Shown: positions 34,509 to 56,558 of the stretch, in pieces
How the letters are laid out: every line of letters begins with the position of its first letter
Numbering within the stretch: the first letter of the stretch is position 1
Origin: Cryobacterium cheniae
Lineage (GTDB): Bacteria > Actinomycetota > Actinomycetes > Actinomycetales > Microbacteriaceae
Assembly (NCBI RefSeq): GCF_004403395.1
Contig: NZ_SOGN01000035.1
Span: forward strand, 1-64,000
Reading direction: 5' to 3'
Length of the DNA stretch: 64,000 bases
Notes under the pieces: generated by a model
Database searches by the model: none
What the model saw: only the letters and a program-made list of their open reading frames with translations
What the model was told of the DNA's origin: nothing
Position numbers and translations under genes: made by a program

Positions 34509-34526
34509 GATTCCCCGGCGGCACGT

Positions 34527-35956: not shown

Positions 35957-36010
35957 GTGATGCGTCACTGAGTGCTGCGTCACTGAGTGTTGCATCACTG
36001 AGTGCTGCGT
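35951..36010. repeat. Four 15-bp tandem repeats overlapping a stop codon
   Basis: Units CACTGAGTG plus six bases at 35951, 35966, 35981 and 35996. Each CACTGAGTG is itself a small dyad. The first unit includes the flavodoxin stop codon. Confidence 0.9.
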
Positions 36011-36022
36011 CACCGGACGTCG

Positions 36023-36053
36023 AAAGGCCCAGGTCGCGGTGACCTGGGCCTTT
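36023..36053. terminator. Bidirectional terminator
   Basis: Perfect 13-bp stem AAAGGCCCAGGTC / GACCTGGGCCTTT with a 5-nt loop between convergent genes. A/T ends on both sides give U-runs in either direction. Confidence 0.88.
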
Positions 36054-36081
36054 CTTCACGCTGTGCGTGTGGAGCGTCGTG

Positions 36082-36978: not shown

Positions 36979-37057
36979 AGTTTTTCCTTTCATGTCGCCC
37001 TGACGGGCGACCGGGGCAGATTCAGGATCCAGGTGTTCGTGTGCGGGGCGCACCGGA

Positions 37058-37945: not shown

Positions 37946-39228
37946 AGGTCGGCTCCTTCCAGAGCGGTGTCGCGGAGGGTTTCGGTGATCATGTTGACGG
38001 AAATCGTTGCCACGGGCTCGATCACGGGTAGTTCGCCCGTGTTCGTGCTCACGTTGCCGAGCGCGGCCAGCAGGGTCACCCGAGGGATGACGCCGAGCAG
38101 ACGGTTCTTCTCATCGACCACGGCAATGGCCAGGTCGCTGCCCACCGACGGTTCGACCAGGTCGACCAGCGGTGTGTCCGGGCTGACGGAGATCGCATCC
38201 GTGCGCACGATGGCACGCAGATCGGTCTCGCCGGCCTTGACCTGCTTCAGCACGTCACGGTCGCGCACCACCCCGGCGAAGCTGCGGTCGCGGTTGAGCA
38301 CGAAGGTGGCGGAAGTCTGCAGGTCCCGCATGGTGCGGAGCGCCGCACGGGGGCCGCCGGTGATCGTGACCACGGAGCGCACGGGTTCCATCACGCTGGC
38401 CGCGGTCAGCACCCGGGCGCGGTCGACATCCTGAACGAACTGGGCGACGTAGTCGTTGGCCGGGTCGGTGAGGATCTCCTCCGGCGTGCCGATCTGCACG
38501 ATCCGCCCGTCCCGCATGACCGCGATGCGGTCGCCGAGGAACATGGCCTCATTGAGGTCGTGGGTGATGAAGATGATGGTCTTGCCGAGCTCGGCCTGCA
38601 GCTCGATCAACTGTTCCTGCATTTCGCGGCGGATCAGCGGGTCGAGGGCCGAGAAGGCCTCGTCCATCAGGAGCACATCGGTGTCGGCGGCGAGGGCGCG
38701 GCCGAGGCCGACGCGCTGCTGCATTCCGCCGGACAGCTCGGCGGGCAGGCTGTCGGCCCAACCGTCCAGCCCGACCAGACGGATGATTGTGCGCGCCTTG
38801 GCCAGTCGCTCCTCGCGGCCCATTCCCTGCACCTCGAGGCCGTAGGCGACGTTGTCGATCACGGTGCGGTGCGGCAATAGGGCGAAGTGCTGGAAGACCA
38901 TCGAGATGTTCTTGCGGCGCACCTCGCGCAGCGCGGCAGCGGAGATGCCGGTGATCGACTGACCTGCCACCGTCACGGTTCCGGACGTGGCGTCCAGCAG
39001 CCCGTTCAGCATGCGGATCAGGGTGGACTTGCCGGAACCGGACAGTCCCATCACCACGAAGATCTCGCCGCGGCGCACCTCGAACGAGGCGTCGATCACG
39101 GCGGCGGTGCCCAGCGAAGACACCTCATCGCGGCTGGCTCCCGCGGTCAGTTTCTTGACGAGCTCGTGCGGGCGACGCCCGAACGCTTTGTACAGTCGAT
39201 CTGCCTTCACGGCAATGGTTTCGGTCAC
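37942..39228 (-). CDS. Glycine betaine/proline ABC transporter ATPase with CBS pair
   Basis: 428-residue QAT-family ATPase (ProV/OpuAA). Walker A GLSGSGKST, signature LSGGMQQRVGLGRALA and Walker B VLLMDEAFSALDPLIR are all intact. The C-terminal 150 residues hold two CBS modules, which in OpuA sense ionic strength. GTG start at 39228 with GGGAGA upstream. First gene of the importer operon. Confidence 0.94.
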   Translation of the reverse strand: MTETIAVKADRLYKAFGRRPHELVKKLTAGASRDEVSSLGTAAVIDASFEVRRGEIFVVMGLSGSGKSTLIRMLNGLLDATSGTVTVAGQSITGISAAALREVRRKNISMVFQHFALLPHRTVIDNVAYGLEVQGMGREERLAKARTIIRLVGLDGWADSLPAELSGGMQQRVGLGRALAADTDVLLMDEAFSALDPLIRREMQEQLIELQAELGKTIIFITHDLNEAMFLGDRIAVMRDGRIVQIGTPEEILTDPANDYVAQFVQDVDRARVLTAASVMEPVRSVVTITGGPRAALRTMRDLQTSATFVLNRDRSFAGVVRDRDVLKQVKAGETDLRAIVRTDAISVSPDTPLVDLVEPSVGSDLAIAVVDEKNRLLGVIPRVTLLAALGNVSTNTGELPVIEPVATISVNMITETLRDTALEGADL

Positions 39229-39639
39229 GGATTCTCCCGGTGCACGCCGGGCGGGGCCGGGTCACGGCCGACGGAACGGATGCACGCTGTGTCGGACGGG
39301 TAGGCCGTGATTGGCCTCGACGCAGTGAAAACGTGGGCTGGAACGATCATTGGGATCGCGCCGTCAGAGCCTCACCATACGAAGCGGCCGTCCCGATGGG
39401 GCCGTCGGCTGCACGTTCGCGTCCTGGTGAAGGGTCGTTAGACCAGAAACGATCGTAGCACAAGGGGCATTTGCGTCGGATCTCCGGGGGAATCGACGAT
39501 TTCGGCAGATGAGAACGCAGGCCACCACGCGTTCGCGGCGCAGGCCGGGGAACCCGGCGCACGATGGAGCGTGCGCCCGATTCCCGGGCCTGCGCCGCGG
39601 ACATCCGTGCCGGGCCGCGCACGGCGACTCGGGGCGGGC
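39229..39639. other. 411-bp intergenic space upstream of betaine importer
   Basis: No convincing gene. It contains a candidate minus-strand promoter (39452-39480) and is otherwise GC-rich sequence without a clear terminator for the symporter gene ending at 39640. Confidence 0.5.
39452..39480 (-). promoter_or_regulatory. Candidate promoter of the betaine importer
   Basis: On the minus strand TCCGAC, a 17-bp spacer, TACGAT, with a TG three bases before the -10. It predicts a leader of about 215 nt to the GTG at 39228. Pattern match only. Confidence 0.35.
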
Positions 39640-41019
39640 TCAGACCTTCAGTGCGGCGGTCTGGGCGACCTTCTCGTTCTCCGCGGCCGTCTCCGCGGTG
39701 CTGGGCAGGCCGTGGTGGGCGATCATCGTGGTCTCGTCGAACGGTTCCTCGCGACTGAGAACGCGGTCGAGCTGGGCACGGTCGAGCTCCTTGGTCCAGG
39801 AGCCGATCAGCACGGTGGCAACGGCGTTGCCGGTGAAGTTGGTGAGCGCGCGGGCCTCGGACATGAAGCGGTCGATGCCGACGATGAAGCCGACCCCGTC
39901 GAGCAGCTGCGGGGCGTGGGCCTGCAGGCCGGCGGCGAGGGTCGCGATGCCGGCACCGGACACCCCGGCGGCACCCTTGGAGGCGATGATCATGAAGGCG
40001 AGGAGCCCGATCTGCTCGCCCAGGGCGAGCGGCTGGCCCATGGCCGTGGCGATGAAGAGCGACGCCATGGTCAGGTAGATCGCGGTGCCGTCGAGGTTGA
40101 AGGAATAGCCGGTGGGGACCGTGACGCCCACGACGGGCTTGGAGACGCCGAGGTGCTCCATCTTGGCGATCAGCCGCGGCAGCGCAGCCTCGGAGGAGGA
40201 GGTCGAGAAGATCAGCAGGTATTCGCGGCCGAGGTAGCGCATCAGCTTGAAGATGCTGACGCCGGTGACCAGTTTGAGCAGCCCACCGAGGATGACCACG
40301 ATGAACAGGATGCAGGTGGCGTAGAAGGCGCCCATCAGGGTGAAGAGGCTGATCACGGCCTGCATGCCGGTGGCACCGACGACGGCGGCGATCGCGCCGA
40401 AGGCACCGATCGGCGCGAGCCACATGACCATGATCAGGATGCGGAACACCAGCGCCTGCACGTGCGCGATGCCCTCGAGGATCGGCTTGCCGGCCGGGCC
40501 CATCTTCTGCAGCGCGAAACCGGCGATCAGGGCCACCAGCAGGGTCTGCAGGATGTTGCCGGCGGTCAGCGAGGAGAACAGCGTGGTCGGGATGATGCCG
40601 AGGAAGAAGTTCGTCTCGGCGGCTTCCGGCGGCACGAAGGTGGTCGCGTTGATGTCGAGTCCCGTACCGGGCTTGACCAGGTTGCCGACGAAGAGGCCGA
40701 TGGCCAGGGCGAAGGTGGACATGGTCAGGAAGTAGCCGAGGGCCAGACCGCCGATCCGGCCGACTGTGGCCGCCTTCGCGATGGAGCCGATGCCGAGGAT
40801 GATCGTGCAGAAGATGATCGGCGAGATCATCATCTTGATCAGGGCGATGAAGATGTCGCCGAGCGGTTTGAGCGAAACGGCGAAGCCGTCCTTGCCGCCG
40901 AACATCAGACCGACGATGACGCCGAGGATCACGGCGACGATGACCGCCATGTACAGGTAGTGGGACTTGTCCAACTTCTTCGCGGGCTGTGCAGCCCGAG
41001 CGCGAGGCATTGATGCCAT
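39640..41019 (-). CDS. Cation:dicarboxylate symporter (DctA/GltP family)
   Basis: 459-residue DAACS-family transporter. Features are the first helix MAVIVAVILGVIVGLMF, the serine-rich STSSSEAALPRLIAKME re-entrant loop, and PTGYSFNLDGTAIYLTMAS with the N-x-D substrate/Na+ motif. It imports C4-dicarboxylates or glutamate with Na+ or H+. ATG at 41019 has AAAGGAG upstream. It is divergent from a CitA/DcuS-type kinase and its regulator, which fits dicarboxylate-induced expression. Confidence 0.93.
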   Translation of the reverse strand: MASMPRARAAQPAKKLDKSHYLYMAVIVAVILGVIVGLMFGGKDGFAVSLKPLGDIFIALIKMMISPIIFCTIILGIGSIAKAATVGRIGGLALGYFLTMSTFALAIGLFVGNLVKPGTGLDINATTFVPPEAAETNFFLGIIPTTLFSSLTAGNILQTLLVALIAGFALQKMGPAGKPILEGIAHVQALVFRILIMVMWLAPIGAFGAIAAVVGATGMQAVISLFTLMGAFYATCILFIVVILGGLLKLVTGVSIFKLMRYLGREYLLIFSTSSSEAALPRLIAKMEHLGVSKPVVGVTVPTGYSFNLDGTAIYLTMASLFIATAMGQPLALGEQIGLLAFMIIASKGAAGVSGAGIATLAAGLQAHAPQLLDGVGFIVGIDRFMSEARALTNFTGNAVATVLIGSWTKELDRAQLDRVLSREEPFDETTMIAHHGLPSTAETAAENEKVAQTAALKV

Positions 41020-41034
41020 AAAAGACTCCTTTGT

Positions 41035-41045
41035 CTAGTAACTAG
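41035..41045. promoter_or_regulatory. Small palindrome between symporter and kinase genes
   Basis: CTAGTAACTAG, a perfect 11-base dyad 16 bp before the symporter start. A possible site for the adjacent response regulator, but short. Confidence 0.3.
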
Positions 41046-41167
41046 GCTGGGGTGAGGCGTTGGTGCGCCCGGGCCATCCGTTGTGGATCTCACACTGGTA
41101 GACCGAAGCGCCCGCGTCACGGTTGCGGTCATATTGGTCATGGCCGCGCAAATGGGAGAAGGATGCG

Positions 41168-42844
41168 ATGGGGCGAGGCTGGAGCATTGCGCGCCGCCTG
41201 TTCCTGGCGAACGCCCTGCTCATCATCGCGATGACCGTGTTCGTGGGCACCGCCGCCTTCGTCGACGCCCGCGACCGCGGTTTCGTCGCCGCCGAGGAAC
41301 GGATGCTGTCAGTCGCCACCGCCATCGCCGACAACCCGCTCCTGCTGGAAGCCAGTCGCGCGGCCGATCCGAGCGCGGTGCTGCAGCCCTACGCCCTGCG
41401 GGTCACCGAGGATGCCGGCCTCGACTTCATCACGATCATGTCGCCCGACCGCACCCGCTGGACCCACCCCACAGAGTCGGAGATCGGCCGTCCCTACATC
41501 GGCACCGTCACGCCCGCCCTGTCCGGGGAGCCGTTCACCGAGGTGACCACGGGCACACTCGGTCCCTCGGTGCGGGCCGTCGTGCCGATCACCGACGAGC
41601 AGGGTGCCGTGCAGGGCCTGGTCGCGGCGGGCGTGAAGACGAGCAACCTCTCGATCGCGTTGAGCGCCCGCCTGCCGGCCGTGCTGGGTGTGGCCCTGAT
41701 GCTGCTGGCCGCCGGTACCGTCGCCGCCTGGCTGCTCGGCCGCTACCTGAGCCGGGTCACCCTCGGCTGGGGTCCCGAACAGCTCGCCCAGCTTTTCGTC
41801 TACTACGACTCGGTGCTGCATTCGGTGCGGGAGGGGCTCGTGCTCGTCGGTCTCACGGGTGAGGTCGTGCTCTACAACGACCAGGCCGCCCGGCTGCTCG
41901 GCCTGCCGCCGCGCGCACCGGCCGGCGGACGGTCATCCGCTGCCGCCGCGCACGGCCTCGACCGGCTGGATCTTCCCCCGGCGCTCGCCGAGTTGCTGCA
42001 GAGCGGCCGCCCGGCCACCGACGAGATCCACGTCACCGATACGCGCGTGCTGGTCGTCAGTCAGCAACCGGCGCTGAAACCGGGAAGCGGCCGCAGCAGG
42101 CCCACCCCGATGGGCTGGGTTGCCACCATCCGCGACCACACCGACCTGCAGTCGATGGGCAGCGAACTCCGGTCGATGCGCACCCTCTCGGATGCCCTCC
42201 GCGCGCAGACCCACGAGCACGCGAACCGTCTGCACACCATCGTGTCCCTGATGGAACTCGGTCGCGGGGCCGAGGCCCTCGACTTCGCCACCAAGGACCT
42301 GGCGCAGAGCCAGCAGCTCACCGACGACATGCTCGACTCGGTGGACGAACCGGTGCTCAGCGCCCTGCTGATGGGCAAGTTCGCCCAGGCCAGCGAGCTG
42401 GGTGTGCTGCTCACGGTCGAGGCTGCCGGAACCCTCGCCGAATCCGGGCTGAACGCGCAAGACCTGGTCACGGTCGTGGGCAACCTGGTCGACAACGCGC
42501 TCGACGCCGCCGCCGGCGGCGAGGCGCCCCGCCAGGTTCACCTCGCGGTCAGCTCCACTCCCGCGTCGGTGACGATCGAGGTGGCCGACTCCGGGCCCGG
42601 CGTCGCCCCGGACGCCGTGACCGACATCCTCCGCCGCGGCTACAGCACCAAGGAGCCCGGCACCTTCGGCCGCGGCCTCGGCCTGGCACTGGTGCGGCAG
42701 ACGGTCAACCGGCTCGGCGGCAGCCTCGGCATCACCCGCCGGGACGGCGCCGTGTTCACGGTCACCCTCCCCCGGCAGCCGGGCCAGTCCCCTGCGCCGA
42801 AACAACCCGGCCTCGCGGCAACGGTGGGCGGATCGCATGGCTGA
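41168..42844 (+). CDS. CitA/DcuS-type sensor histidine kinase
   Basis: 558-residue kinase. Helix 1 (about 10-31) and helix 2 (about 168-191) bracket a periplasmic sCache/PAS domain that in relatives binds citrate, malate or fumarate. A cytosolic PAS domain (about 208-330) leads to the phosphoacceptor region THEHANRLHTIV with H349 as the expected phosphorylated histidine. The HATPase region has NLVDNALDAA and DSGPGVAP. The ATG at 41168 has AGAAGGA five to ten bases before it. It overlaps the regulator gene by eight bases. Confidence 0.93.
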   Translation: MGRGWSIARRLFLANALLIIAMTVFVGTAAFVDARDRGFVAAEERMLSVATAIADNPLLLEASRAADPSAVLQPYALRVTEDAGLDFITIMSPDRTRWTHPTESEIGRPYIGTVTPALSGEPFTEVTTGTLGPSVRAVVPITDEQGAVQGLVAAGVKTSNLSIALSARLPAVLGVALMLLAAGTVAAWLLGRYLSRVTLGWGPEQLAQLFVYYDSVLHSVREGLVLVGLTGEVVLYNDQAARLLGLPPRAPAGGRSSAAAAHGLDRLDLPPALAELLQSGRPATDEIHVTDTRVLVVSQQPALKPGSGRSRPTPMGWVATIRDHTDLQSMGSELRSMRTLSDALRAQTHEHANRLHTIVSLMELGRGAEALDFATKDLAQSQQLTDDMLDSVDEPVLSALLMGKFAQASELGVLLTVEAAGTLAESGLNAQDLVTVVGNLVDNALDAAAGGEAPRQVHLAVSSTPASVTIEVADSGPGVAPDAVTDILRRGYSTKEPGTFGRGLGLALVRQTVNRLGGSLGITRRDGAVFTVTLPRQPGQSPAPKQPGLAATVGGSHG

Positions 42845-43538
42845 CCGGGACATCCGGGTGCTCGTCGTGGAAGACGAGGCCATCGCCGCCGAGGCGCACA
42901 CGGCCTACCTCGGCCGCCTGACCGGCTTCGTGCACGCGGGCACCGCCGGCGACGGCCACTCCGCCCTGCGCGCCCTGGCCGCGGCCGTGGCCGCCGGGCA
43001 GCCCATCGACCTGGTGCTGATGGACATGACCCTGCCCGATCTGCACGGCCTCGACGTGAGCCGACGGATGCGCGCGGCCGGCCTGACCACCGACATCATC
43101 GCCATCACGGCGGTGCGCGAACTGCACATCGTGCGCGGAGCGGTGGCGGCCGGCATCGTGCAATACCTGATCAAGCCGTTCAGCTACGCGACCTTCGCGC
43201 AGAAGCTGGTGCAGTACCGGGACTTCCGGCTACACCTGGGAAGCCAATCCGCGATGACCAGCCAGAACGACGTGGACCAGGCGTTCGCGAGCCTGCGCAC
43301 GCCCACCGAGCTGCCTCGACCGAAGGGTCTGGCGGAGAGCACTCTGGGCGCGGTGATCGAGTTGCTGAAGCTTCAGACCGTGCCACTGTCCTCCAGCGAG
43401 GTCACGGAGCAGCTGGGAATTTCCCGGGTGACCGCCCGGCGCTACCTCGAGCATCTGGCCGACACCGGACTACTCGACCGGTCCCCGCGCTACGGCACGC
43501 CGGGGCGGCCCGAGAACGAATACGCCTGGCGCCGCTGA
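42837..43538 (+). CDS. CitB/DcuR-type response regulator
   Basis: 233-residue regulator. Receiver domain at about 6-125 with phosphoacceptor D63 in VLMDMTLPD and the late K of LIKPFSY. The output domain (about 165-225) is a winged/HTH type with SSEVTEQLGISRVTARRYLEHL. The N-terminus overlaps the kinase gene. It likely activates the divergent symporter in response to external dicarboxylate. Confidence 0.93.
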   Translation: MADRDIRVLVVEDEAIAAEAHTAYLGRLTGFVHAGTAGDGHSALRALAAAVAAGQPIDLVLMDMTLPDLHGLDVSRRMRAAGLTTDIIAITAVRELHIVRGAVAAGIVQYLIKPFSYATFAQKLVQYRDFRLHLGSQSAMTSQNDVDQAFASLRTPTELPRPKGLAESTLGAVIELLKLQTVPLSSSEVTEQLGISRVTARRYLEHLADTGLLDRSPRYGTPGRPENEYAWRR

Positions 43539-43539
43539 G

Positions 43540-43582
43540 CCGGTCGGTCGGTCGAGCCGGTCGGTCGAGCCGGTCGGTCGAG
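43540..43582. repeat. GAGCCGGTCGGTC tandem repeat
   Basis: Three partial copies of a 13-bp unit (GAGCCGGTCGGTC) after the regulator stop, related to the dispersed GGTCGAGCC repeat family of this window. Confidence 0.75.
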
Positions 43583-43590
43583 GGCGCAGC

Positions 43591-44103
43591 TCAGTGACCG
43601 GCGCGCTGCGCCAGGCCGCTCACATAGGCGGCCTGGCCGGCGTGTTGGAGGTCGTCGACGAGCACACTGACCAGGCGCACTGCGAGCGTGACCGGCGGCG
43701 TCCACCGGGTGTCGACGACGCGGGAATAGTCCGACTCGGCGAGGGTGGGCAGCCACGCGATGGTGCGGGAGTGCACGGCGTCGAAGTAGCCGCCGAGATC
43801 GGATGCGTCCGCGCGCAGCTGACCGACCTCCTCGGCGGTCTGTCCGTACCCGGTGGCGGCGCGGTCGAAAGGCAGTGCGAACCGGTCGGCCCAGCCGCCG
43901 CTGATCCAGAGCTGGTCCTCCTGCATGATCTCGCTCAGGTGGTCGTCCTGCACCCGGGTCAGGTGCCAGATCAGCCACGCGATGCTGTTCGCCTCCGAGT
44001 GGGGCCGGAAGGTCAGCAGTTCCGCCCCGGCATCCTGGAGCACGGCGTGCACGACCCCGCGGATGCGGCCGTACGATTCGGCGATCAGGTAGCTCGACAG
44101 CAT
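43591..44103 (-). CDS. DinB-family (DUF664, mycothiol-transferase-like) protein
   Basis: 170-residue four-helix DinB-fold protein. Metal-ligand histidines are expected in AWLIWHLTRVQDDHL, with a third in LVDDLQHAGQAAYV. Proteins of this type in mycothiol-containing actinobacteria include mycothiol-dependent isomerases and S-transferases. No operon partner. Confidence 0.82.
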   Translation of the reverse strand: MLSSYLIAESYGRIRGVVHAVLQDAGAELLTFRPHSEANSIAWLIWHLTRVQDDHLSEIMQEDQLWISGGWADRFALPFDRAATGYGQTAEEVGQLRADASDLGGYFDAVHSRTIAWLPTLAESDYSRVVDTRWTPPVTLAVRLVSVLVDDLQHAGQAAYVSGLAQRAGH

Positions 44104-44297
44104 CCGAGGTCCTCCGTCTGGTCGTGAGTGAGTCTGGTCGTGAGTCAGCGGGTCTTCGGTGCGTCCCGCTCGGTCGGAGTCAGAGTAGACCGGGCTGCCG
44201 GATTGCGCATTCCGCGACCCACCCCTCGGGAGGCGGCCTGGTCAGCCGGGGTCTGGTTCGCCGGGTCGGCTTCGGCGGGGCCGGACCTGTCGACGTT

Positions 44298-44369
44298 GGT
44301 CGAGCCGGTCGGGACCAGGCGACCCATCCGCCGAAGGTTCCCGCGACGCTGGTCGAGCCTGTCGAGACC
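44298..44369 (+). repeat. Two copies of the dispersed 19-bp repeat
   Basis: GGTCGAGCCGGTCGGGACC at 44298-44316 and GGTCGAGCCTGTCGAGACC at 44351-44369, the second 12 bp from the HNH stop codon. The rest of the 277-bp space after the DinB gene holds no clear gene. Confidence 0.75.
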
Positions 44370-44380
44370 AGGAGCCAGAG

Positions 44381-45859
44381 CTAGCGTTTGCTCGGCAGTG
44401 CGATCAGTTTCTGCTCCGGATCCACTTCTATTGGCGGCCGGCGCCAGTAGTCGGTCCCGTTGCGGAGGATCGTCCAGTGCTGGTTGTGCAGCAGCAGGTG
44501 GTGCGGGTGGCAGAGGAGTACTCCGTCGGCGAGGTCGGTGTAGCCGTTGTTTTTCAGCCATTCGTCGCTGTGGTGGGCTTCGGTCCAGGCGGGTGATCGG
44601 TCGCAGTCGACCCAGAGGCATCCGCCGTCGCGTACGGCCATCGCGGCGCGCTGTTTCTCTGTGAAGAGTCGTTCGTCACTGCCGACGTTGATGATCTGGC
44701 CTTCTGCGTCGAGCTGGATGCCGCGGGTTCCGGTGTCGCAGAGCAGCCGGTCGATGGTTTCCTGCGAGATCGGGACCGGGTTTCCCTCGATCTGACCGTG
44801 AGCGGCGGGCTCGGCGGAATCGGCGGGCTCGGCGGAATCGGCGGGCTCGGCGGGCTCGGCGGGTTCCGTGGCTTTCGGCTGCCCAGCCGGGAGCGCCTTC
44901 TCGGTCACGATCACACGCACCGCGGGGCGGCGCCCGCCGAACACCCGGTCGGGGTCGGCCTCACCCGCGATCTTGAGCAGCTGCACCAGGGAGTCCGCGG
45001 CGATCTGCTCCGTGCTGCGCGGGTCCTCCTGCAGGCGTTTGGCCCAGGCGGCCCGCTGCGGGTCGACGAACCTCACTCCGCCGCGGCGGGGAGCGGTGAT
45101 GGAGTCGAAGGTGGAGAGCACGAATTCGCCGTCTTCCGGGGCGAAGAGCCCGTTCAGGCGTACGTTGCCGTTGCTGAGCCGGTAGACCTTCAGGTAGCGG
45201 TCGTCGTGGGCCTGTTTCTCGCGGGCGGCGATGCCGGCCTCGTCGAGCCGGTCGCGCATCCGTCTCGCGCGTTTGAAGACCTCGTCGGCGTTCAGAGTCG
45301 ACGCCTCGGCCAACAGCGTCTCGAGTGCCGCCCCGAGCTTCTCGGCCGTGACCGCGGCATCGATCTGACCGAGCCCGGCCCGGATCGACTCCGCCGCGTC
45401 GACGGAGAGGGTGCCGGTTGTCACGGCCCGGGCGATCGGGGCCTGCCAGGGCACCTTTGCGACGAATCCGGCCATGCCGGCGGCATCAATGTCGGGCGAC
45501 GAGAGGGCGGCTTCGACGAGCTTCTCGGCCGCCTCGGTGTCGGCCATCATGGTGCCGACCGCGACCAGCTTGTACGCGTCGCCCTTCGACGAGCCGGTCC
45601 ACTTCTGGATCAGAGCCTCCGGGGACAGGAAACCCTGCTGCGCGACCAGACCCGAGTGCCCGAGCTCGGGCCGGGAGCGGCGGGCGATGGTCGCGGCCAT
45701 CCACGCGGAATGGGTGTCCAGGAGGCGCCGGGCGGCCGCGATCTGCTTCTGCCCTGCCGGTAGCGCGGCGTCGGGCAGGGCTTCATAGTCCGCGCTCGAG
45801 GAACCCAACAGGGCCACGGCATCGGCCGCCCGCCTGAGGTCTTCCGCGTGGTTGATCAT
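44381..45859 (-). CDS. DUF222/HNH endonuclease (13E12-type family)
   Basis: 492-residue protein. Residues about 20-300 are DUF222, a helical domain found with HNH nucleases in many actinobacterial multicopy families, including the mycobacterial 13E12 repeats. A low-complexity proline/alanine/glutamate linker (TEPAEPAEPADSAEP) follows. The HNH core is near the end: CLWVDCDRSPAWTEAHHSDEW and GVLLCHPHHLLLHN, with two CxxC-like positions missing but the His-His, Asn and His residues present. ATG at 45859 is preferred to 45886, which sits on a TATA-like stretch; neither has a ribosome site. Flanked by inverted copies of a 19-bp repeat. A damaged relative is at 32075-32346. Confidence 0.88.
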   Translation of the reverse strand: MINHAEDLRRAADAVALLGSSSADYEALPDAALPAGQKQIAAARRLLDTHSAWMAATIARRSRPELGHSGLVAQQGFLSPEALIQKWTGSSKGDAYKLVAVGTMMADTEAAEKLVEAALSSPDIDAAGMAGFVAKVPWQAPIARAVTTGTLSVDAAESIRAGLGQIDAAVTAEKLGAALETLLAEASTLNADEVFKRARRMRDRLDEAGIAAREKQAHDDRYLKVYRLSNGNVRLNGLFAPEDGEFVLSTFDSITAPRRGGVRFVDPQRAAWAKRLQEDPRSTEQIAADSLVQLLKIAGEADPDRVFGGRRPAVRVIVTEKALPAGQPKATEPAEPAEPADSAEPADSAEPAAHGQIEGNPVPISQETIDRLLCDTGTRGIQLDAEGQIINVGSDERLFTEKQRAAMAVRDGGCLWVDCDRSPAWTEAHHSDEWLKNNGYTDLADGVLLCHPHHLLLHNQHWTILRNGTDYWRRPPIEVDPEQKLIALPSKR

Positions 45860-45942
45860 GAAATGAAAATACCATTTAGAGCACATATAGTCGAGGGTTA
45901 CTCACCTGCTGTGGACAGTAGTCTCGTATTTCTGTTCAGGTT

Positions 45943-46037
45943 CAGTCGGTCCCGTGGCTCAGGCTGTGGATCGCGGCGGATGTTCTACGTGCGCCCGCTT
46001 CCGGAACGTGCGCCGCGACGCACGGGAACCTCCGGAG
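45943..46037 (-). repeat. Conserved region upstream of the HNH gene
   Basis: Matches 32395-32481 near the HNH remnant. It contains a dyad CGTGCG(CCGCGA)CGCACG here that is partly lost in the other copy. Confidence 0.7.
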
Positions 46038-46141: not shown

Positions 46142-46179
46142 TTGGTGCACCCCCCCGGACTTGAACCGGGAACCCACTG
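46142..46179 (-). repeat. attL: 38-bp duplicate of the tRNA-Lys 3' end
   Basis: Identical over 38 bp to 56482-56519. It holds the T-arm and acceptor 3' half of tRNA-Lys (CGGACTTGAACCGGG and GGTGCACC on the plus strand), then diverges at 46180. Left boundary of the integrated element. Confidence 0.93.
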
Positions 46180-46304: not shown

Positions 46305-46327
46305 TCATCCTGACCAAATCCTGACTG
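46305..46327 (+). promoter_or_regulatory. Putative left arm-type integrase site
   Basis: 23 bp matching 56406-56428 with one mismatch, in the same orientation. It consists of two direct ATCCTGACY units 11 bp apart. Lies 126 bp inside attL. Confidence 0.65.
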
Positions 46328-47109: not shown

Positions 47110-47790
47110 TTAGCCGACCTTGGTCCACTTCCCACATCGGTTGGACTCGAATACTTCGCCCGCCTTGAGCGTCACGGTCGCTGGTCCATTCACGATTTCA
47201 TTGTCAACGATTTCAGCGTCACTACCCGTTCCCGATTTCCAGGCGTAGTAGCACCGCGTACTGGTGCTAATCGCGTAGGTGCCCGGTGTGACATTGGTCC
47301 CGACCAAGTGCATTCCATCGGAAAACTGGTCCTTTGCAACTTGCTGCGTTGAGGCAGCCAATGCGTCCTGACCCGCTTTCAGCGAGGCCTGATCAGCCAG
47401 CAGCGTGGCTTCGGAATCAGCCACAGCAACTTCCCGATCAATCAGCTCAGCGTTTCTGTCCCGTGCATCTTGGACTTTCTCGTTCGCCGCCTGGAACTTG
47501 TCCGACATTACTTCGACCTTTTCGGTCAAGTTGGCTTCCATTACGAGGTACTCCTCGGTGGTTGCCACGGCTGGCCGGGTGATGACTCCGAGCACGCCGC
47601 CGAGGACTACACCAGCGACCAGAACTGCCGCCGCTGTGATTCCCAATGACCGCGCAGTGTGATTCTTCGCCTGAAGCCACTTCGGGGAATTGAGCCCCTT
47701 TTTCCAGTTCCTGCCCGACGACGCGGATTGAGCCGAACCGGTGTGCTCCGGCAGTGCCTTCTTAGATGGTTGTTGCGTATCGTCGGTCAT
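47110..47790 (-). CDS. Membrane-anchored coiled-coil protein with extracellular C-terminal domain
   Basis: 226 residues: polar N-terminus, one membrane helix (about 49-71), a helical coil (about 78-150), and a C-terminal domain with DGMHLVGTNVTPGTYAI, CYYAWKSG and FESNRCGKWTKV. The pattern of GTYxx, CYxA and the closing CGxWxK is common in secreted actinobacterial and phage-borne proteins whose role is unknown; the two cysteines may be disulfide-bonded. ATG at 47790 has GGGGGA four bases upstream and is preferred to 47802. Could alter the cell surface (inference). Confidence 0.65.
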   Translation of the reverse strand: MTDDTQQPSKKALPEHTGSAQSASSGRNWKKGLNSPKWLQAKNHTARSLGITAAAVLVAGVVLGGVLGVITRPAVATTEEYLVMEANLTEKVEVMSDKFQAANEKVQDARDRNAELIDREVAVADSEATLLADQASLKAGQDALAASTQQVAKDQFSDGMHLVGTNVTPGTYAISTSTRCYYAWKSGTGSDAEIVDNEIVNGPATVTLKAGEVFESNRCGKWTKVG

Positions 47791-48000
47791 TCGATCCCCC
47801 ATGTCACTGCACTCACCCCCGAGTGCATACTTACGTGAAATCTACTGTGGGCCGGAATCGGCAGAAGAACTGAGAACACCCCCCAAAACGGGATCCATCA
47901 ACCAAGGAGGACTGGAACCGGGATCTTGACTCCGTTTCACGCTTCAGTGGCTGCCGGAGCTGTCCTCCCGCGCTCGTCCTCATCGAGGAGGTGACAATCC

Positions 48001-48010
48001 TGCCGATAGT
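48001..48010 (+). promoter_or_regulatory. Shared element promoter-like motif, copy 1
   Basis: TGCCGATAGT ends eight bases before the ATG of the restriction-like gene, which has no ribosome site at normal distance. The same ten bases occur on the minus strand at 53733-53742 and 54738-54747. It may be a -10 region giving a leaderless mRNA. Confidence 0.45.
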
Positions 48011-48018
48011 CTCTGGAC

Positions 48019-49035
48019 ATGGCGATAAAAGCGTGGTGGGACGGCCAATTGAGTCAGCGATATTGGATGGAAATAACGGATAGACCCGATCTTGGTGGTG
48101 AGCTGACAGCCCCTCAGTACAACATCGCACTCAAACCCGAGTGGTCTTACGAACTTGTGACCCATGTTCGGCCCGGGGATATCGTCATCCACTGGCACAA
48201 GAAGCTGGTCGGAGAGCCGGCCATTGTCGGCTGGTCAAGGGCGGTTGGTCCGCTCTCGGAATCGACCATGTCATGGACTTCTCCCGGCGCAAAGGACTCC
48301 GCACGGCATCATGTGGATGTCCCGAACTGGATCATGCCGCTTGGGGCGCTGCACCTTCTCGATGCCCCGATTACCAGCGCCGATTTGCAGAGTATCTTCC
48401 CGCAGATCGTCTCGACACTAGAAGGTTTCTCCTACGCGCCCTTCTACGTCTACGGGGGCCGTCAGCTTCGAGCGATGCAGTCCTACCTGACCAAGTTTCC
48501 GGCGGAGCTGATCCCGGTTATTGAGTCGGTCGGCTCGTTGGAGCTTGATGCCGAGCCGAACGACTTCCCCCTACTCCCCGACACCAAGACGACACCGAAC
48601 GGCCACGGAGGCGGACAAGGTTGGCTACGTGACGCGAAACTCAAGGTCGCTATCGAGCTACACGCCGTTCAGAAGGCGGTCGAGCACTATGTAGAACTCG
48701 GGGCCACAGACATCTTGGAGCTTGGCAAACCCTTCGATATCAAGTTGATGCTTGGCGGTGATGAGCGGCGCATCGAGGTAAAGGGATCATCCGGGGCTGT
48801 CGATTCCGTCCTCCTCACACGGAACGAGGTGATCCACGCCCGGGGGTTCGAGAGCATGGACTTGGTCGTCGTGGACGAGATTGAATTCGAGCGACTGAGC
48901 AACGGTGAGTACGCAACCAAGGGCGGACGAATTCGCGTCTGGAACGGGTGGAGTCCCTCTGAACAGAGCCTCACTGCCATGTCTTATAAACACGAGCTGA
49001 GCCCGTCCGCCCTCGGGAATGGGATCCCGTGCTAG
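48019..49035 (+). CDS. Putative restriction enzyme: EVE-like domain plus DUF3883 nuclease-like domain
   Basis: 338 residues. The N-terminal 130 residues resemble EVE/PUA-like modified-base readers found at the start of type IV restriction proteins: WWDGQLSQRYWMEITDRPDL, RPGDIVIHWHKK and IVGWSRAVG. Residues about 205-312 match DUF3883, a PD-(D/E)xK-type fold: PFD with D240, then IEVK with E253 and K255, then LLTRNEV. This would let the protein read modified bases and cut DNA, but neither function is proved. No methylase is adjacent. A GTG start of the next gene overlaps its end, so the two are coupled. Confidence 0.65.
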   Translation: MAIKAWWDGQLSQRYWMEITDRPDLGGELTAPQYNIALKPEWSYELVTHVRPGDIVIHWHKKLVGEPAIVGWSRAVGPLSESTMSWTSPGAKDSARHHVDVPNWIMPLGALHLLDAPITSADLQSIFPQIVSTLEGFSYAPFYVYGGRQLRAMQSYLTKFPAELIPVIESVGSLELDAEPNDFPLLPDTKTTPNGHGGGQGWLRDAKLKVAIELHAVQKAVEHYVELGATDILELGKPFDIKLMLGGDERRIEVKGSSGAVDSVLLTRNEVIHARGFESMDLVVVDEIEFERLSNGEYATKGGRIRVWNGWSPSEQSLTAMSYKHELSPSALGNGIPC

Positions 49036-49643
49036 CTCGGCTGAAAGCCGTTGGTGGCCTGTTGCTTGTCTTGGCAGGATTCGGGCTCGGACTTGGCCTC
49101 GTCAGCGTGCCATTGAGTCAAACCGGGAAGTGGTTTCTCGCATTGCCACCACAAACAATGGCCGTTGTCGCAAGTGTGTCAGCCCTCTTGATCGTGCCTA
49201 TCATCACGTACTTCACGACGAAGTCGCTCGAACAAGGCAAGTCCCGTGAGAACGCCGTGCGTCAACAGAAAACGGAATTCTACGACCGGTTGATACAGCA
49301 GTTGATATCCACTCTGGGCATTGCGAGCGGAGGAAAGGCGACCTCCGACGAGATGCTGGCCATCTTTGCGAGTGTCCCCGCTCCGCTCCTCACATTTGGT
49401 TCTGGGGGTGTTATTCGGGCGTGGAACCACTTCACCCGAGTGGGCCGAGAGAAGAGCGGCGACACCAAGGCGGTGATGATCGCATTCGAGGGCCTTCTCC
49501 GAGCAATCCGAAACGATCTCGGCCACAAGGATTTCTTGTACGAGAAGGGCGAACTGATTGGTGTGTTCCTCAAGGACGCAAACACAGTCTTCGGCAGTCC
49601 CAAGAAGGCATCTGTCCCCGTGAGGCAAATCCCCACAACGTAG
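49029..49643 (+). CDS. Two-helix membrane protein coupled to the restriction-like gene
   Basis: 204 residues. Two membrane helices (about 8-28 and 44-63) are followed by a cytosolic helical domain with RQQKTEFYDRLIQQLIS, APLLTFGSGGVIRAWNHF and GLLRAIRNDLGHKDFL. The last two phrases recur in membrane proteins of unknown function in actinobacterial and phage-rich regions. The GTG start overlaps the upstream stop by seven bases. By context it could be a membrane-acting effector or accessory of the nuclease (inference). Confidence 0.65.
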   Translation: MLARLKAVGGLLLVLAGFGLGLGLVSVPLSQTGKWFLALPPQTMAVVASVSALLIVPIITYFTTKSLEQGKSRENAVRQQKTEFYDRLIQQLISTLGIASGGKATSDEMLAIFASVPAPLLTFGSGGVIRAWNHFTRVGREKSGDTKAVMIAFEGLLRAIRNDLGHKDFLYEKGELIGVFLKDANTVFGSPKKASVPVRQIPTT

Positions 49644-49713
49644 GGCCCAGCCTGCCCGTATGCGATTGACCATTCCGGCAATCAAAGAACGAAGTTCAGG
49701 AAGAAATTTTCAG

Positions 49714-50562
49714 ATGCAAACATTTGCCGAACGAAACGGCTACACGGCCAAGAGGTCCGCGATTCAGATTGATTCGTTTGACAGTGAAACTCGAATCGCC
49801 ATGTGGAACGTCCTTGTGCTATTCCAAGACGACAACTCTGGTCAGCAGTATCGGATGGAAGGCGAAAAGTTCGCCACCGACATCTGGTCGCGGTTTTACA
49901 AGCTCCCCTTGGACGAATTCTGGGACTCCGGGCGGGTCTGGCAGATGGTCAAGAAAACCATCCTCGAATCATCGTGGCTTGAGATGTTCAACGTCGTGGA
50001 GTTCGTGGTTCGTAACGTGAACAAGAGGTTCAAGCGCCGTTGGTCGGAGGCGCTCTCAAAGGTGTTCAATTCCCTTTTCGAACATCACCTAGTCGGCTAT
50101 CGCTTCATAGATGAGATGATCACCCCGATTGATTCTCCGGATGCTTTGGCAGCAATTGAGGCTGCTCGGGATGCCACGGACCAGTACGCTGGCGCACGGC
50201 ACCACCTGAAGACCGCGCTAGCCAAGCTCTCGGATCGAAGTAGGCCAGATTACGCCAACTCCGTAAAGGAGAGCCTGTCAGCAGTTGAGTCGATGGGGGA
50301 AGCTCTAACTGGTGAGACGACGCTGGGGAAGGCGCTCGACAAGCTCGCATCAGTTGGGATTGTCACGCATCCAGCTCAGCTCAAGGCCTGGAAGGCGATG
50401 TACGGCTGGGCGAGCGATGAAGGCGGGATCCGTCACTCGGCTCAGGCTCCACCCACAGTCGATCAGGCAACGGCCAAGTACACGCTCATTTCGTCCAGTG
50501 CATTCATTTCGCTGCTGATCGATGCAGCACTTCACGCGACCGACCGCATTGAGGTCGGCTAG
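49714..50562 (+). CDS. AbiJ-NTD4-type abortive infection protein
   Basis: 282 residues. The opening TFAERNGYTAKRSAIQID, the central WLEMFNVVEFVV, the C-terminal LSDRSRPDYANSVKESLSAVE and the closing MYGWASDEGGIRHS follow the AbiJ_NTD4 family pattern closely. Members are linked with abortive phage defence, and many carry HEPN-like ribonuclease features, but the active residues here are not certain. The ATG at 49714 has AGGAAG ten bases upstream and begins at the family's usual N-terminus; the ATG at 49660 adds 18 residues without a ribosome site. It follows the two-helix protein by 70 bp. Confidence 0.78.
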   Translation: MQTFAERNGYTAKRSAIQIDSFDSETRIAMWNVLVLFQDDNSGQQYRMEGEKFATDIWSRFYKLPLDEFWDSGRVWQMVKKTILESSWLEMFNVVEFVVRNVNKRFKRRWSEALSKVFNSLFEHHLVGYRFIDEMITPIDSPDALAAIEAARDATDQYAGARHHLKTALAKLSDRSRPDYANSVKESLSAVESMGEALTGETTLGKALDKLASVGIVTHPAQLKAWKAMYGWASDEGGIRHSAQAPPTVDQATAKYTLISSSAFISLLIDAALHATDRIEVG

Positions 50563-50627
50563 ACGGCGAGCTGAGCAGTGGCCTCAGGCCGGGAGCGACC
50601 CACTGTTCTCCGTCTCGGAGATACTTA

Positions 50628-51659
50628 CTAGCTCCCGAGGTACTCAGTCTGAGCTGCCAGCTCCTCGCTGGTGCGGTCATAGCCTCTGAGAATATTCATG
50701 TTCTTGTGTCCGGAGATTGCGGCCACCTTCGCCTCTGTCACCCCGGCCTGTGCCGAGAGCGTGATGAAGGTGGATCGGAGGCTGTGGCTCGAATAGGCCT
50801 GTGCGCCGCTCTCGGTCACGACACCAGCATTCAGGAGCACTCCGCGCACGATGTGGCTAACCGCGTCTGAGGCGTTGCTGAGGCGCTCTCCGACCTGAAC
50901 GCTGGCTCCCCGCACGTGGGGAAAGAGTGGAGCATCCGGCGTGGCCGCAGCCGTGACCCCGAGCGAGCCGAGATAGTCGATCCAGTCCTGAATGGCGCGT
51001 ACCGGATCGATCTTCCGATTCGATGCCCGTGCAATCGTGACCTCTCGGCCTTCCCCGGTCTGGTCCGTCTTGCTCCACCGGATCCGCACATTGAGACCAT
51101 TCACGGCGAGCGCTGAAGTCACGTCCGAAACATTGAGGTCAGCGAGAGACTGGCTCCGGAGCGCCGCCCCGATACCGAGGGCGATCAGGGCACGGTTCCG
51201 GAGGTTTTTAGCTGTGCGGCGCTGGAGGCTCCTGTGGACCTGTCCAAGCTGCTCCAGCGTGAGCGCCTGGGCCTTCCGCACGACTGTGGTCTTGCTGGTG
51301 CGGGAGATCCCGGCCATGAATGCTTTGACCTCACGGGAGGAGTTCAAGATCATGAATCCCAAGTGGGACTCACGGGATGCGAAGAACTTGATTCCGCTCA
51401 GGTTCTTGTTCACCGTGGACACGGACTTCCCATCGTCAGCCAGCGTTTGAAGGTAGGAGAGCACCTGTGCAACGTACAGCCCGGAGTCGGATGCATCCGT
51501 GGGGTACAGGCTCCAGCCACGTTCCCCGCAGTAGCTCCGGAATTTCTGCTGGGCAATGTTGTACGCCTTCAGCGTGGACTCAGCCACGGACGCGTCCAAG
51601 GTGGCCGCAATGTTGGCGAGGTTGTGAACCGGAGCGGCGGGGAGGAGTGCTGAAGTCAT
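50628..51659 (-). CDS. Second tyrosine recombinase
   Basis: 343 residues. A SAM-like N-terminal DNA-binding domain (about 15-120) is followed by the catalytic domain with R168 (AALRSQSL), K197 (WSKTDQ), H292 and R295 (HSLRS), H318 (GHKN) and the nucleophile Y327 (GYDRT): a full active-site set. It lacks an arm-binding domain, so it is Xer-like or a solitary phage/transposon recombinase and not the island integrase. It is preceded by overlapping dyads (51682-51715). It may resolve element multimers or act on a separate target (inference). Confidence 0.86.
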   Translation of the reverse strand: MTSALLPAAPVHNLANIAATLDASVAESTLKAYNIAQQKFRSYCGERGWSLYPTDASDSGLYVAQVLSYLQTLADDGKSVSTVNKNLSGIKFFASRESHLGFMILNSSREVKAFMAGISRTSKTTVVRKAQALTLEQLGQVHRSLQRRTAKNLRNRALIALGIGAALRSQSLADLNVSDVTSALAVNGLNVRIRWSKTDQTGEGREVTIARASNRKIDPVRAIQDWIDYLGSLGVTAAATPDAPLFPHVRGASVQVGERLSNASDAVSHIVRGVLLNAGVVTESGAQAYSSHSLRSTFITLSAQAGVTEAKVAAISGHKNMNILRGYDRTSEELAAQTEYLGS

Positions 51660-52423: not shown

Positions 52424-52864
52424 TCAGGCTCCCGAATACTTCGTGGTGCTCTGCTTGCTTGCGGCTGGTCCGAACTCCTCTGAGACGGCACGGAGAGCCT
52501 CTCCGCGCTCTACTTCGTCAGGCATGGCCCATGCTGCGAGTCGGCGGCGCTCACGCTCTGCGACATGCTCGACTGAGCCGGGAACGAGCACGGTCTCTGA
52601 GCTGAGCCACGGTCCTCGTGCGAACATTACTCGGCCAAATTTCTGGACCTGACCGGCTGCATCAAGGTCGAGGAAGCTATCTCCATTGCGGTCTTGGTTC
52701 TCAAAGATCATTGCGTCAGTCAGCGTGATGGTCTGGCCCCGCTTCAGTACGGCACCCCCGGTTGTGTAACCGTTGCTCACGGCGACGGTCAGACCGCTCT
52801 GGAGGATGTGGATCTGATCTCCAGCCTTCAGGGCTGTGAGAGTTGCGCTCTTTGTGGTGGTCAT
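52424..52864 (-). CDS. Small beta-rich protein with helical tail, paralogue of next gene upstream
   Basis: 146 residues. ALKAGDQIHILQSGLTVAVS begins a beta-rich domain of about 75 residues that aligns with the 88-residue protein at 52876: GDQIHIL/GDVIHFL, then ITLTDAMI/LTITPELI, GDSFLDL/NHSWLEL, and FGRVMFARGPW/YGAVHFGIGPY. A helical tail follows (AERERRRLAAWAMP). ATG at 52864 with AAGGAAT upstream; longer frame rejected. May bind nucleic acid or form part of a phage-like particle (unproven). Confidence 0.65.
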   Translation of the reverse strand: MTTTKSATLTALKAGDQIHILQSGLTVAVSNGYTTGGAVLKRGQTITLTDAMIFENQDRNGDSFLDLDAAGQVQKFGRVMFARGPWLSSETVLVPGSVEHVAERERRRLAAWAMPDEVERGEALRAVSEEFGPAASKQSTTKYSGA

Positions 52865-52875
52865 GATGATTCCTT

Positions 52876-53142
52876 TCAGTCGTCTGTGTTGGCTGGATAG
52901 GGTCCGATACCGAAGTGAACGGCCCCGTATCGTGCGAGCTGTGCGGCTGGATTGTCTGCCAGCTCCAGCCATGAGTGATTTGAACCATCCCAGCTCGCAG
53001 TGATCAGCTCCGGGGTGATAGTCAGCTCGTCACCCTGACGAGCGACATGCCCACGGCCCGGGAAATCGAATACCGAAAGGCCGGTAACGAGAAAATGAAT
53101 GACATCTCCCGGCTGTACGGGGAGATGAGGTGTTTGTGTCAT
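52876..53142 (-). CDS. Small beta-rich protein, paralogue of downstream gene
   Basis: 88 residues. HLPVQPGDVIHFLVTGLSVF opens a domain homologous by eye to the first 80 residues of the protein at 52424-52864. The ATG overlaps the upstream stop by four bases. The pair seems a tandem duplication in which one copy gained or kept a helical tail. Confidence 0.65.
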   Translation of the reverse strand: MTQTPHLPVQPGDVIHFLVTGLSVFDFPGRGHVARQGDELTITPELITASWDGSNHSWLELADNPAAQLARYGAVHFGIGPYPANTDD

Positions 53143-53789
53143 TTTGAAGACCTTTCAAGGGATGTTGCTTTGGCCTGGATCTCCCTGTAGGAGTCAGCAA
53201 GTTCTGGGGAGCGCTTCGCAAGCTCATCTATCAAGAGTGATCCCGGTAGTGGATTCTGGGCTATGAAAGCTCCCACTGACCGGAGGAGGGCCTTCGATGC
53301 CACGAGGAGATCAATGGTCTCCGTGCTGTCGATTCCCAGTCGCTCCATGAGGGTATTGAGAGCCTTCAGCTCGTGATCTCCGGCCTTCAGAGCTGTGATC
53401 GTTGATCCTGTTGCCTGTGCACTCCGGCGAGCGCTGAGAGCGTCGTCTGCGATTGCTTGGATCCGTTCCATCAGGGAAGTGGTGTCGAGTGTCTCGCTGC
53501 CTCTGATTGCACCCCGAAGCAGCGGAGCCATATGGGAGCTGATATGCCGATACAGCGAGGACGGAGAAATGGTGAACCTTGCGGAGACCGCTGAGACCGC
53601 TGAGACCGCTGAGACTCCCGATATTGTCGAAATTCCCCCGGCACCTGAGACCAGCATTTTCTCGATATTGGAGCGCTCGCCGGAGGTGCACACCTTGCAC
53701 GGTCTGCCTGCTTTGTTTTCCTGCACACAGTTACTATCGGCACTTTTGACTTTGAGTGAAGAAACTCGCCCCGGGGTACGTTTCAGCAC
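53139..53789 (-). CDS. Zinc-knuckle and helix-turn-helix DNA-binding protein, small-terminase-like
   Basis: 216 residues from the GTG at 53789, or 195 from the GTG at 53726. The segment GRPCKVCTSGERSNIEKMLVSG is a CxxC start of a common actinobacterial DNA-binding module, and SPSSLYRHISSHM is its recognition helix. A run of AVSAVSAVSA is encoded by three 9-bp repeats (GAGACCGCT at 53584-53610) and stretches the turn. The rest is long helices (ADDALSARRSAQATG to the end). Similar proteins occur in phages and satellites where small terminase genes lie; this is only a suggestion. The 53726 start is favoured if TGCCGATAGT at 53733-53742 is its promoter. Confidence 0.62.
   Translation of the reverse strand: MLKRTPGRVSSLKVKSADSNCVQENKAGRPCKVCTSGERSNIEKMLVSGAGGISTISGVSAVSAVSAVSARFTISPSSLYRHISSHMAPLLRGAIRGSETLDTTSLMERIQAIADDALSARRSAQATGSTITALKAGDHELKALNTLMERLGIDSTETIDLLVASKALLRSVGAFIAQNPLPGSLLIDELAKRSPELADSYREIQAKATSLERSSK
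53733..53742 (-). promoter_or_regulatory. Shared element promoter-like motif, copy 2
   Basis: TGCCGATAGT on the minus strand, six bases before a GTG at 53726 in the frame of the zinc-knuckle gene. Confidence 0.4.
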
Positions 53790-54969: not shown

Positions 54970-55173
54970 CTAGGTCGTCGTGCGCTCCCCCGCCGTCGCC
55001 CAAGCCTCCAGATCTGCCAGCCGGTAACGCACCAGTCGCCCAGTCTTGACGTACTTCGGGCCGGTCCCCCGGTAGCGAAGCTGTGCGAGTGCAGCGGCTG
55101 ACCTTGACAGGTAGCGGGCTGCGTCATCCGGTCTGAGCAACCGGGGTCTGTCGGGAGTCTGTGGGAAGGTCAT
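54970..55173 (-). CDS. AlpA/excisionase-type helix-turn-helix protein
   Basis: 67 residues. LLRPDDAARYLSRSAAALAQ, GTGPKYVKTGRLVRYRLADLEAW is the usual winged-helix pattern of MerR-like excisionases. TATAAC (minus) six bases before the ATG suggests a leaderless mRNA. Divergent from the integrase across 44 bp. Likely directs excision or regulates integrase. Confidence 0.85.
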   Translation of the reverse strand: MTFPQTPDRPRLLRPDDAARYLSRSAAALAQLRYRGTGPKYVKTGRLVRYRLADLEAWATAGERTTT

Positions 55174-55217: not shown

Positions 55218-56414
55218 ATGAAAGTTTGGATCAATGACCGGTGGAACACGGTAGACGGCACCAAAAACGCCGCTTGGGGCAAAGGCTCGCGCTGGCGCGC
55301 AGTATGGATAGACCCGACTAAGGCCGGTAAAGGTGAAACGTCCAAGTCCTTCGCAAAGAAAGCTGACGCTGAGGCCTACCGCGCGAAAATGGAGGATTCC
55401 CTCCGGGCGGGCACCTACCGGGCACCTGAGCTGGCGAACAAGAATTTTGCCGCTGCTGCTGACGCGTGGTTCTCAGGGAAGAAGAAACCTACAGGCTCAT
55501 CCCTGAAGCGGTACAGGGATGCACTCGATGTGTGGGTGCTGCCCAAGTGGGGAACCCGCAAACTTTCAACCATCGAGAAGACTGAAATAGACGAGTGGGT
55601 TACCGCGCTCGCAGACGGCTCAGCACCCCATGCAGAGGATAGAACTGTCCACGGTGGCGGGCTAAGCCCCAACGGCATCACAGCCGTCTGGGTGCCCTTC
55701 AGGGCTGCTGTAGCCAACGCTCTGCACCTCGGTTGGATCACCGGAGACCCATGCGTTGGGGTGGAGCTTCCAAAGACCCCGCACAAGGAGATTGACACAC
55801 TCACCCACACTGAAGTGAAGGCGCTGGCCGATGCCGCGCATAAGGTCGCTGACAACCGTTCAGATGCCCTCATGGTCGAGCTAATGGCGTATGCAGGCCT
55901 ACGCCCGGGTGAAGTCGTCGCGCTTCAGGTGAAGCACGTAGCGCTTACGGAGCGCCGAATCCAGATTCGCCGGACACTCACTATCGATGCAGCCGGCAAA
56001 GAAATCTTTGGCCCACCGAAACACGGCGAGCGCCGAGACGTTCCAATTGCTCCACATATCTTGGATGCCCTGGTTGCGCTGACTGCCGGTCGTGCAGCGA
56101 CTGCTCCCCTCGTGACCTCCACCCTCGGTAAGTCGGTGAATGTGCACAACTGGAGATCCCGGGTTTGGACTGCTGCGGTAGCTGGCTCCGGGCTTGACGG
56201 TCGGGGGTTGACCCCCAAGAGCCTGCGGCACACTGCGGCCTCCCGAGCAATCGAAGCTGGAGCCGATGTGAAGGTGATCCAGCGAATGCTGGGGCACGCT
56301 GACGCTACGTTGACCCTGAACACCTACGGGCACCTCTGGCCTGACCGTCTCGATGAAGTAGCCGGTGCCGTATCCGCTGCACGAGAGAAGGCACTGAGTC
56401 AGGAATCATCCTGA
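55218..56414 (+). CDS. Tyrosine integrase of the element
   Basis: 398 residues. The N-terminal part (about 22-70) is an arm-binding AP2-like domain (RWRAVWIDP), followed by a SAM-like core-binding domain (about 75-180) and the catalytic domain with R229 (GLRPGE), K268, R337 (LRHTAAS), H360 (GHAD) and nucleophile Y370 (NTYGHL). The first box-II position is K334 in TPKSLRHT, as is common in actinophage integrases. It points toward attR, and its stop codon lies in the right arm-type site. Inserts and excises the island at tRNA-Lys. Confidence 0.95.
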   Translation: MKVWINDRWNTVDGTKNAAWGKGSRWRAVWIDPTKAGKGETSKSFAKKADAEAYRAKMEDSLRAGTYRAPELANKNFAAAADAWFSGKKKPTGSSLKRYRDALDVWVLPKWGTRKLSTIEKTEIDEWVTALADGSAPHAEDRTVHGGGLSPNGITAVWVPFRAAVANALHLGWITGDPCVGVELPKTPHKEIDTLTHTEVKALADAAHKVADNRSDALMVELMAYAGLRPGEVVALQVKHVALTERRIQIRRTLTIDAAGKEIFGPPKHGERRDVPIAPHILDALVALTAGRAATAPLVTSTLGKSVNVHNWRSRVWTAAVAGSGLDGRGLTPKSLRHTAASRAIEAGADVKVIQRMLGHADATLTLNTYGHLWPDRLDEVAGAVSAAREKALSQESS

Positions 56415-56428
56415 CTAAATCCTGACTG
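56406..56428 (+). promoter_or_regulatory. Putative right arm-type integrase site
   Basis: TCATCCTGACTAAATCCTGACTG without its first base count matters little: two ATCCTGACT units 11 bp apart, overlapping the int stop codon (TGA at 56412). Matches 46305-46327 with one mismatch and lies 54 bp from attR. Confidence 0.65.

Positions 56429-56481: not shown

Positions 56482-56558
<77 letters not shown>

Follow-up and report, generated by a model that had tools for sequence, protein, structure and literature searches.

We analyzed a window of 64,000 nucleotides (nt) from Cryobacterium cheniae (assembly GCF_004403395.1, contig NZ_SOGN01000035.1, positions 1 to 64,000), which carries a 10.4-kb tRNA-Lys integrative island in a 3.2-Mb genome assembled as 71 contigs. 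Three plus-strand genes in the middle of this island, referred to here as genes 1, 2, and 3, encode a protein with EVE and NOV_C/DUF3883 domains, a two-helix membrane protein, and an AbiJ-NTD4 protein, respectively (Table 1). A preliminary description of the locus had grouped them as a possible new defense set. Relatives of the three genes occur together nowhere outside the window in the genomes and loci examined. We propose that they are probably separately inherited anti-phage modules, adjacent by chance in a cargo slot of the island, rather than one conserved system.

The three cargo genes and their island

The gene arrangement given in the preliminary description is confirmed by the coordinates. 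Genes 1 and 2 overlap by 7 nt, and gene 3 follows after a gap of 70 nt when its start is placed at 49714, which is probably correct, rather than 49660, because its three closest relatives start there. The three genes are similar in base composition. A promoter and terminator scan of 47700-50800 returned one promoter-like site against 0.9 expected and no terminators against 2.3 expected.

Gene 1 most likely encodes a modification-dependent endonuclease, as predicted from its domains. The N-terminal half has an EVE fold in the predicted model and in fold matches, and resembles the reader of VcaM4I, an enzyme that cuts DNA containing 5-hydroxymethylcytosine (5hmC) or 5-methylcytosine (5mC). Its invariant pocket residues Y156, Q154, and P32 align to Y130, Q128, and P24 of VcaM4I. 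In the nuclease domain, E213, D240, E253, and K255 are invariant in an alignment of relatives and, on our reading of that alignment, are predicted to form an intact PD-(D/E)XK motif; the modeled domain has fold matches to Hjc and SPARDA nucleases. The NOV_C match, the fold matches, and the conserved residues support the earlier view of this protein as a reader joined to a nuclease.

Gene 2 is supported as a two-helix membrane protein, with two N-terminal transmembrane helices followed by a helical domain. Searches of Pfam, NCBIfam, PHROGs, and PADLOC gave no convincing family match (best E 0.011, far below the model's cut-off), and Foldseek returned nothing at E 0.001 or better for the predicted model. 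The R161NDLGH166 motif fits the Rx4-6H pattern and ends a predicted helix (146-163) that follows the transmembrane helices. Its histidine occupies the same position in four of eight aligned family members, and in the Calothrix piece described below, and is absent from the other four. Kinship with AbiJ-NTD4 proteins was considered and not supported (profile comparison probability 0.2%), nor was sequence kinship with a solved structure in two profile searches. Gene 2 most likely encodes a membrane-anchored accessory or effector of a small unnamed family, some members of which accompany DNA-targeting defense.

Gene 3 matches Pfam AbiJ_NTD4 (E 4.2e-23) and PADLOC PDC-S32 (E 2.1e-87 over residues 16-290, nearly its full length), and its earlier assignment as an AbiJ-NTD4 protein stands. 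We take the S in the PADLOC name to mark a single-gene candidate; we found no mention of PDC-S32 in the literature searched. Gene 3 contains no HEPN Rx4-6H motif; of the seven aligned proteins, four lack it and three carry it only at unaligned positions. Because the motif is absent and aligned in no relative, we class the protein as PDC-S32/AbiJ-NTD4 and not as a HEPN nuclease; a role as a catalytic HEPN RNase is not supported by motif. An adjacent R258-H259 pair is invariant among gene 3 and its aligned relatives. Against solved structures the gene 3 profile gave nothing at E 0.05 or better, and the rows it did return look like chance matches. One relative, gp17 of Curtobacterium phage Barebow (L076:5971-6888, annotated as hypothetical), matches PDC-S32 at E 4.9e-77. 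It is positioned immediately ahead of the phage integrase gene.

The island is bounded by an exact direct repeat, and its interior has a G+C content of 58.1%, compared with 68.4% in 30000-46000. Besides the integrase at the tRNA end, the island has a second tyrosine recombinase gene immediately 3' of the cargo trio, on the other strand, and this enzyme may serve the cargo slot. Doubled ATCCTGAC boxes stand just inside both island ends (46307-46327 and 56408-56428) and share a 12-nt exact core (46316-46327 and 56417-56428); they may be integrase arm-binding sites.

Table 1. Features of the tRNA-Lys island and its cargo
Feature	Coordinates	Strand	Basis or remark
Gene 1, EVE (~10-181) and NOV_C/DUF3883 PD-(D/E)XK (~204-336), predicted	48019..49035	+	Pfam NOV_C, structure model, fold matches
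Gene 2, two N-terminal transmembrane helices and helical domain, R161-N-D-L-G-H166 motif	49029..49643	+	No known family
Gene 3, AbiJ-NTD4, PADLOC PDC-S32	49714..50562	+	Profile matches
Left attachment repeat	46142..46179		38 nt, identical to 56482-56519
Right attachment repeat	56482..56519		At tRNA-Lys 3' end (tRNA 56483-56558, minus)
Island tyrosine integrase	55218..56414	+	Pfam Phage_integrase E 5.2e-23
Island excisionase-like protein	54970..55173	-	PHROG 66 E 6.8e-7
Second tyrosine recombinase, adjoining the cargo	50628..51659	-	Pfam Phage_integrase E 4.3e-10

Distribution and neighbors of the relatives

Among 298 related genomes, the genome of origin apart, gene 1 matches eight, gene 2 four, and gene 3 seven, with no genome in common. 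Profiles of genes 1 and 2 matched nine and five of 348 genomes of the family, a set partly overlapping the 298, again with none shared. Across 396 genomes of the phylum (own genome included), gene 1 matches nine others, with the match confined to the nuclease half in eight. A six-frame scan of 32 loci with all three profiles, window included, detected gene 1 at 15 loci, gene 2 at 10 (two of these being duplicate copies of places already counted), and gene 3 at nine; the window alone carries more than one of the genes. A partner search by profile in four gene 2 genomes and three gene 1 genomes found none, a result that says nothing on its own. By chance, genes 1 and 2 would be expected to overlap in about 0.1 genome (8 x 4 / 298). 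Since such low frequencies make chance overlap rare, these counts show that the genes form no obligate set, and not that they never pair. The three-gene set proposed in the preliminary description is therefore not borne out by co-occurrence in the genomes and loci searched. Its suggested survey of gene neighborhoods shows no recurring pair, which is half of the outcome (no co-occurrence elsewhere and no effect on phage growth) that it had named as refuting.

Gene neighborhoods covered 25 chosen genome regions, with the weaker matches set aside (G135, G264, seven phylum-only gene 1 matches, and G721, G786, G706, and G824 from the family-wide profile searches). One counted gene 2 match (G135) is doubtful, being a long frame with stops, and one counted gene 3 match (L044) is without a PDC-S32 match. 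The profiles used on the Calothrix locus (L080) did not include those of genes 1 and 3, and L073 and L079 lacked annotation. Genes in relatives' regions came from a home-made caller that over-extended some frames, among them a 695-amino-acid apparent fusion in L066, where the real match is 8600-7659.

Neither the single sequences of genes 1 and 2 nor their profiles led to a confirmed relative among viral contigs, and phage records held no match to either gene. Plasmid records gave no match to gene 2 or to its relatives from L038 and L070, and the relative from L036 matched one Calothrix plasmid. The gene 2 sequence alone matched no genome contig, and its profile retrieved only two already known Cryobacterium loci. 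Three plasmids carrying helicase relatives (from E. coli, Tsukamurella, and Streptomyces) gave no match to the profiles of genes 1, 2, and 3.

Seven gene 1 relatives align over both halves (L030, L031, L032, L033, L065, L066, and L073), and three of them directly follow a UvrD-type helicase (L032, L033, and L065). At L032 and L033 a DruE-like gene, the helicase, and the gene 1 relative stand in succession, with DrmA and DrmB of the DISARM system (defense island system associated with restriction-modification) on the other side; the DrmA and DrmB scores are those of L032, to whose genes the L033 counterparts are 65 and 62% identical. The L065 helicase carries a NERD domain. At L031 the gene 1 relative comes after a DUF5343 gene and one that is DUF4145-like, the latter below cut-off, and at L067:7364-8823 a gene related to the nuclease half alone overlaps a following DUF4145 gene that matches PD-T7-4 at E 3.1e-33. 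The pair of a DruE-like gene and a UvrD-type helicase, resembling Druantia III, was seen at L032:7760-16001, L033:8164-15979, and L036:4150-13518. Its third gene varies, being EVE-NOV_C in two actinobacteria (L032 and L033) and, in Cryobacterium glaciale (L036), a relative of gene 2. No DruH was among the matches listed for these Druantia III-like loci (25 of 45 and 43 PADLOC matches). At L068:7484-8611 an MrcB_N reader is fused to a NOV_C nuclease, an architecture parallel to EVE-NOV_C.

The gene 2 family was found at eight distinct other loci (L036, L037, L038, L069, L070, L071, L072, and L080). At L036 the relative comes directly after the pair of a UvrD helicase and a DruE3-like protein (E 7.9e-81 for DruE3); the helicase is 49-50% identical to those of L032 and L033. 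At L038 it lies inside a bacteriophage exclusion (BREX) cluster (BrxC/PglY, PglZ, PglX) on the opposite strand, and on the Calothrix plasmid (L080) between a type IIG-like methyltransferase, with a 130-amino-acid gene, and an HKD-Snf2 helicase. These neighbors place three of the eight loci in or beside multi-gene defense operons. Some of the relatives are distant: the BREX-associated protein is 22% identical to gene 2, and the Calothrix one 28.7% identical to the L036 protein. At L037 (C. arcticum) the relative's neighbors include a serine resolvase gene and counterparts of two of the island's genes (52424-52972 and 53139-53789); a tRNA search, the sole check there for an island, found no tRNA. 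Tested neighbors at L069, L070, L071, and L072 gave no PADLOC match.

Separate modules or a joint system

Under the proposal of separately inherited modules, gene 1 would be a modification-dependent restriction enzyme that needs no partner: its EVE pocket would take up a flipped modified base (5mC/5hmC-like) from incoming DNA, and its PD-(D/E)XK domain would cut that DNA. Gene 3 would likewise act by itself, with infection triggering its abortive-infection function, and gene 2 could serve a membrane-anchored accessory or effector role. Co-translation of genes 1 and 2 is plausible here given their overlap, with no sign that the pairing is old. Several observations weigh against this proposal. 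The common strand, short overlap, and small gap form an operon-like arrangement. Related UvrD-type helicases precede both gene 1 relatives (L032, L033, and L065) and a gene 2 relative (L036), hinting that the two families draw on one pool of partners. Five of the eight other gene 2 loci have no adjoining defense operon among the neighbors tested. Match counts are small, with some matches weak or partial, so that low co-occurrence has limited power. The activities of all three proteins are predictions, and the structure models are middling, with a predicted local distance difference test (pLDDT) score of 65.9 for gene 1 and 63.7 for gene 2. The profile match of gene 1 to VcaM4I consists of two weak stretches (independent E-values 0.19 and 170; 13.8 and 4.1 bits), and the pocket alignment is for this reason support and not proof.

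The gene overlap and the shared position behind related helicases in Druantia III-like operons would also fit a two-gene system, in which gene 1 senses or cuts modified phage DNA, gene 2 is a membrane effector (a pore or tethered nuclease), and gene 3 is unrelated; the gene 2 relatives in the BREX cluster and beside the Calothrix methyltransferase point the same way. We consider this unlikely, as relatives of genes 1 and 2 share no genome or locus among those searched, and the profile search for partners, with the limit noted above, found none. A wider version, in which small membrane effectors (Csx28-like pores or tethered RNases) form a new family, represented here by gene 2, that plugs into unrelated DNA-sensing systems (Druantia-like helicases, BREX, and methyltransferase-helicase operons), strikes us as quite unlikely; in this island the effector would be coupled through the gene overlap to a modified-DNA endonuclease, whose recognition or cutting of modified phage DNA would trigger membrane shutdown. 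Adjacency, common strand, and similar base composition are what a true three-gene system would have in its favor, with direct restriction by gene 1 and back-up cell shutdown by genes 2 and 3. Such a system is very improbable, given that neither the 298 related genomes nor the 32 scanned loci hold a second example and that gene 3 relatives, one of them phage-encoded, occur in the absence of genes 1 and 2. More generally, adjacency within one small island is no evidence for a joint system.

If gene 1 works as predicted, a DUF3883-type enzyme would join the modification-dependent nucleases, and a domain that takes its name from a plant protein would gain a testable function. Should the gene 2 family prove to be a defense effector on several systems, it would represent a common membrane "off switch" with no model in any of the four libraries searched.

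Comparison with known systems

The preliminary description is supported in its three domain assignments and, in the genomes and loci examined, not in its claim of a new three-gene set. The family of gene 2 is the new and interesting part of the locus; the architecture of gene 1 had already been predicted as type IV, and gene 3 belongs to the existing PDC-S32. The RNDLGH motif and helical layout of gene 2 are reminiscent of Csx28, the membrane pore of type VI-B2 CRISPR-Cas13b. Csx28 was not among the matches of two gene 2-family profile searches at E up to 10, its fold Z for the gene 2 model was no better than for unrelated helical bundles (up to 8.2), and in contrast to Csx28 half of the aligned family members lack the motif histidine. 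Neither a sequence match nor a distinctive fold match supports kinship of gene 2 with Csx28.

Gene 3 resembles PDC-S32/AbiJ-NTD4 proteins across nearly its full length and differs from AbiJ-type HEPN proteins, whose expected Rx4-6H it lacks. PMC3710099 describes AbiJ-NTD4 as a domain joined to HEPN domains of the AbiJ type and puts forward RNA cleavage as the route to abortive infection.

Gene 1 is like VcaM4I and other EVE-HNH endonucleases in placing an EVE reader before a nuclease domain in one chain and, within the weak alignment, in conserving pocket counterparts; it differs in that its nuclease is PD-(D/E)XK (NOV_C/DUF3883) and that of VcaM4I is HNH, and a counterpart of W82 could not be placed. 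No paper found in the literature searched treats the EVE domain and DUF3883 together. The main text of Bell et al. (2020, PMC7641849) does not mention DISARM, Druantia, or HEPN. It does note that, in Nocardia, EVE genes of another class have UvrD-Cas4-like helicases nearby, so that helicase neighbors of EVE genes are not new as such. The closest parallel lies in the EVE-PD(D/E)XK proteins predicted there to be type IV restriction enzymes, with which gene 1 shares both domain types and the putative role.
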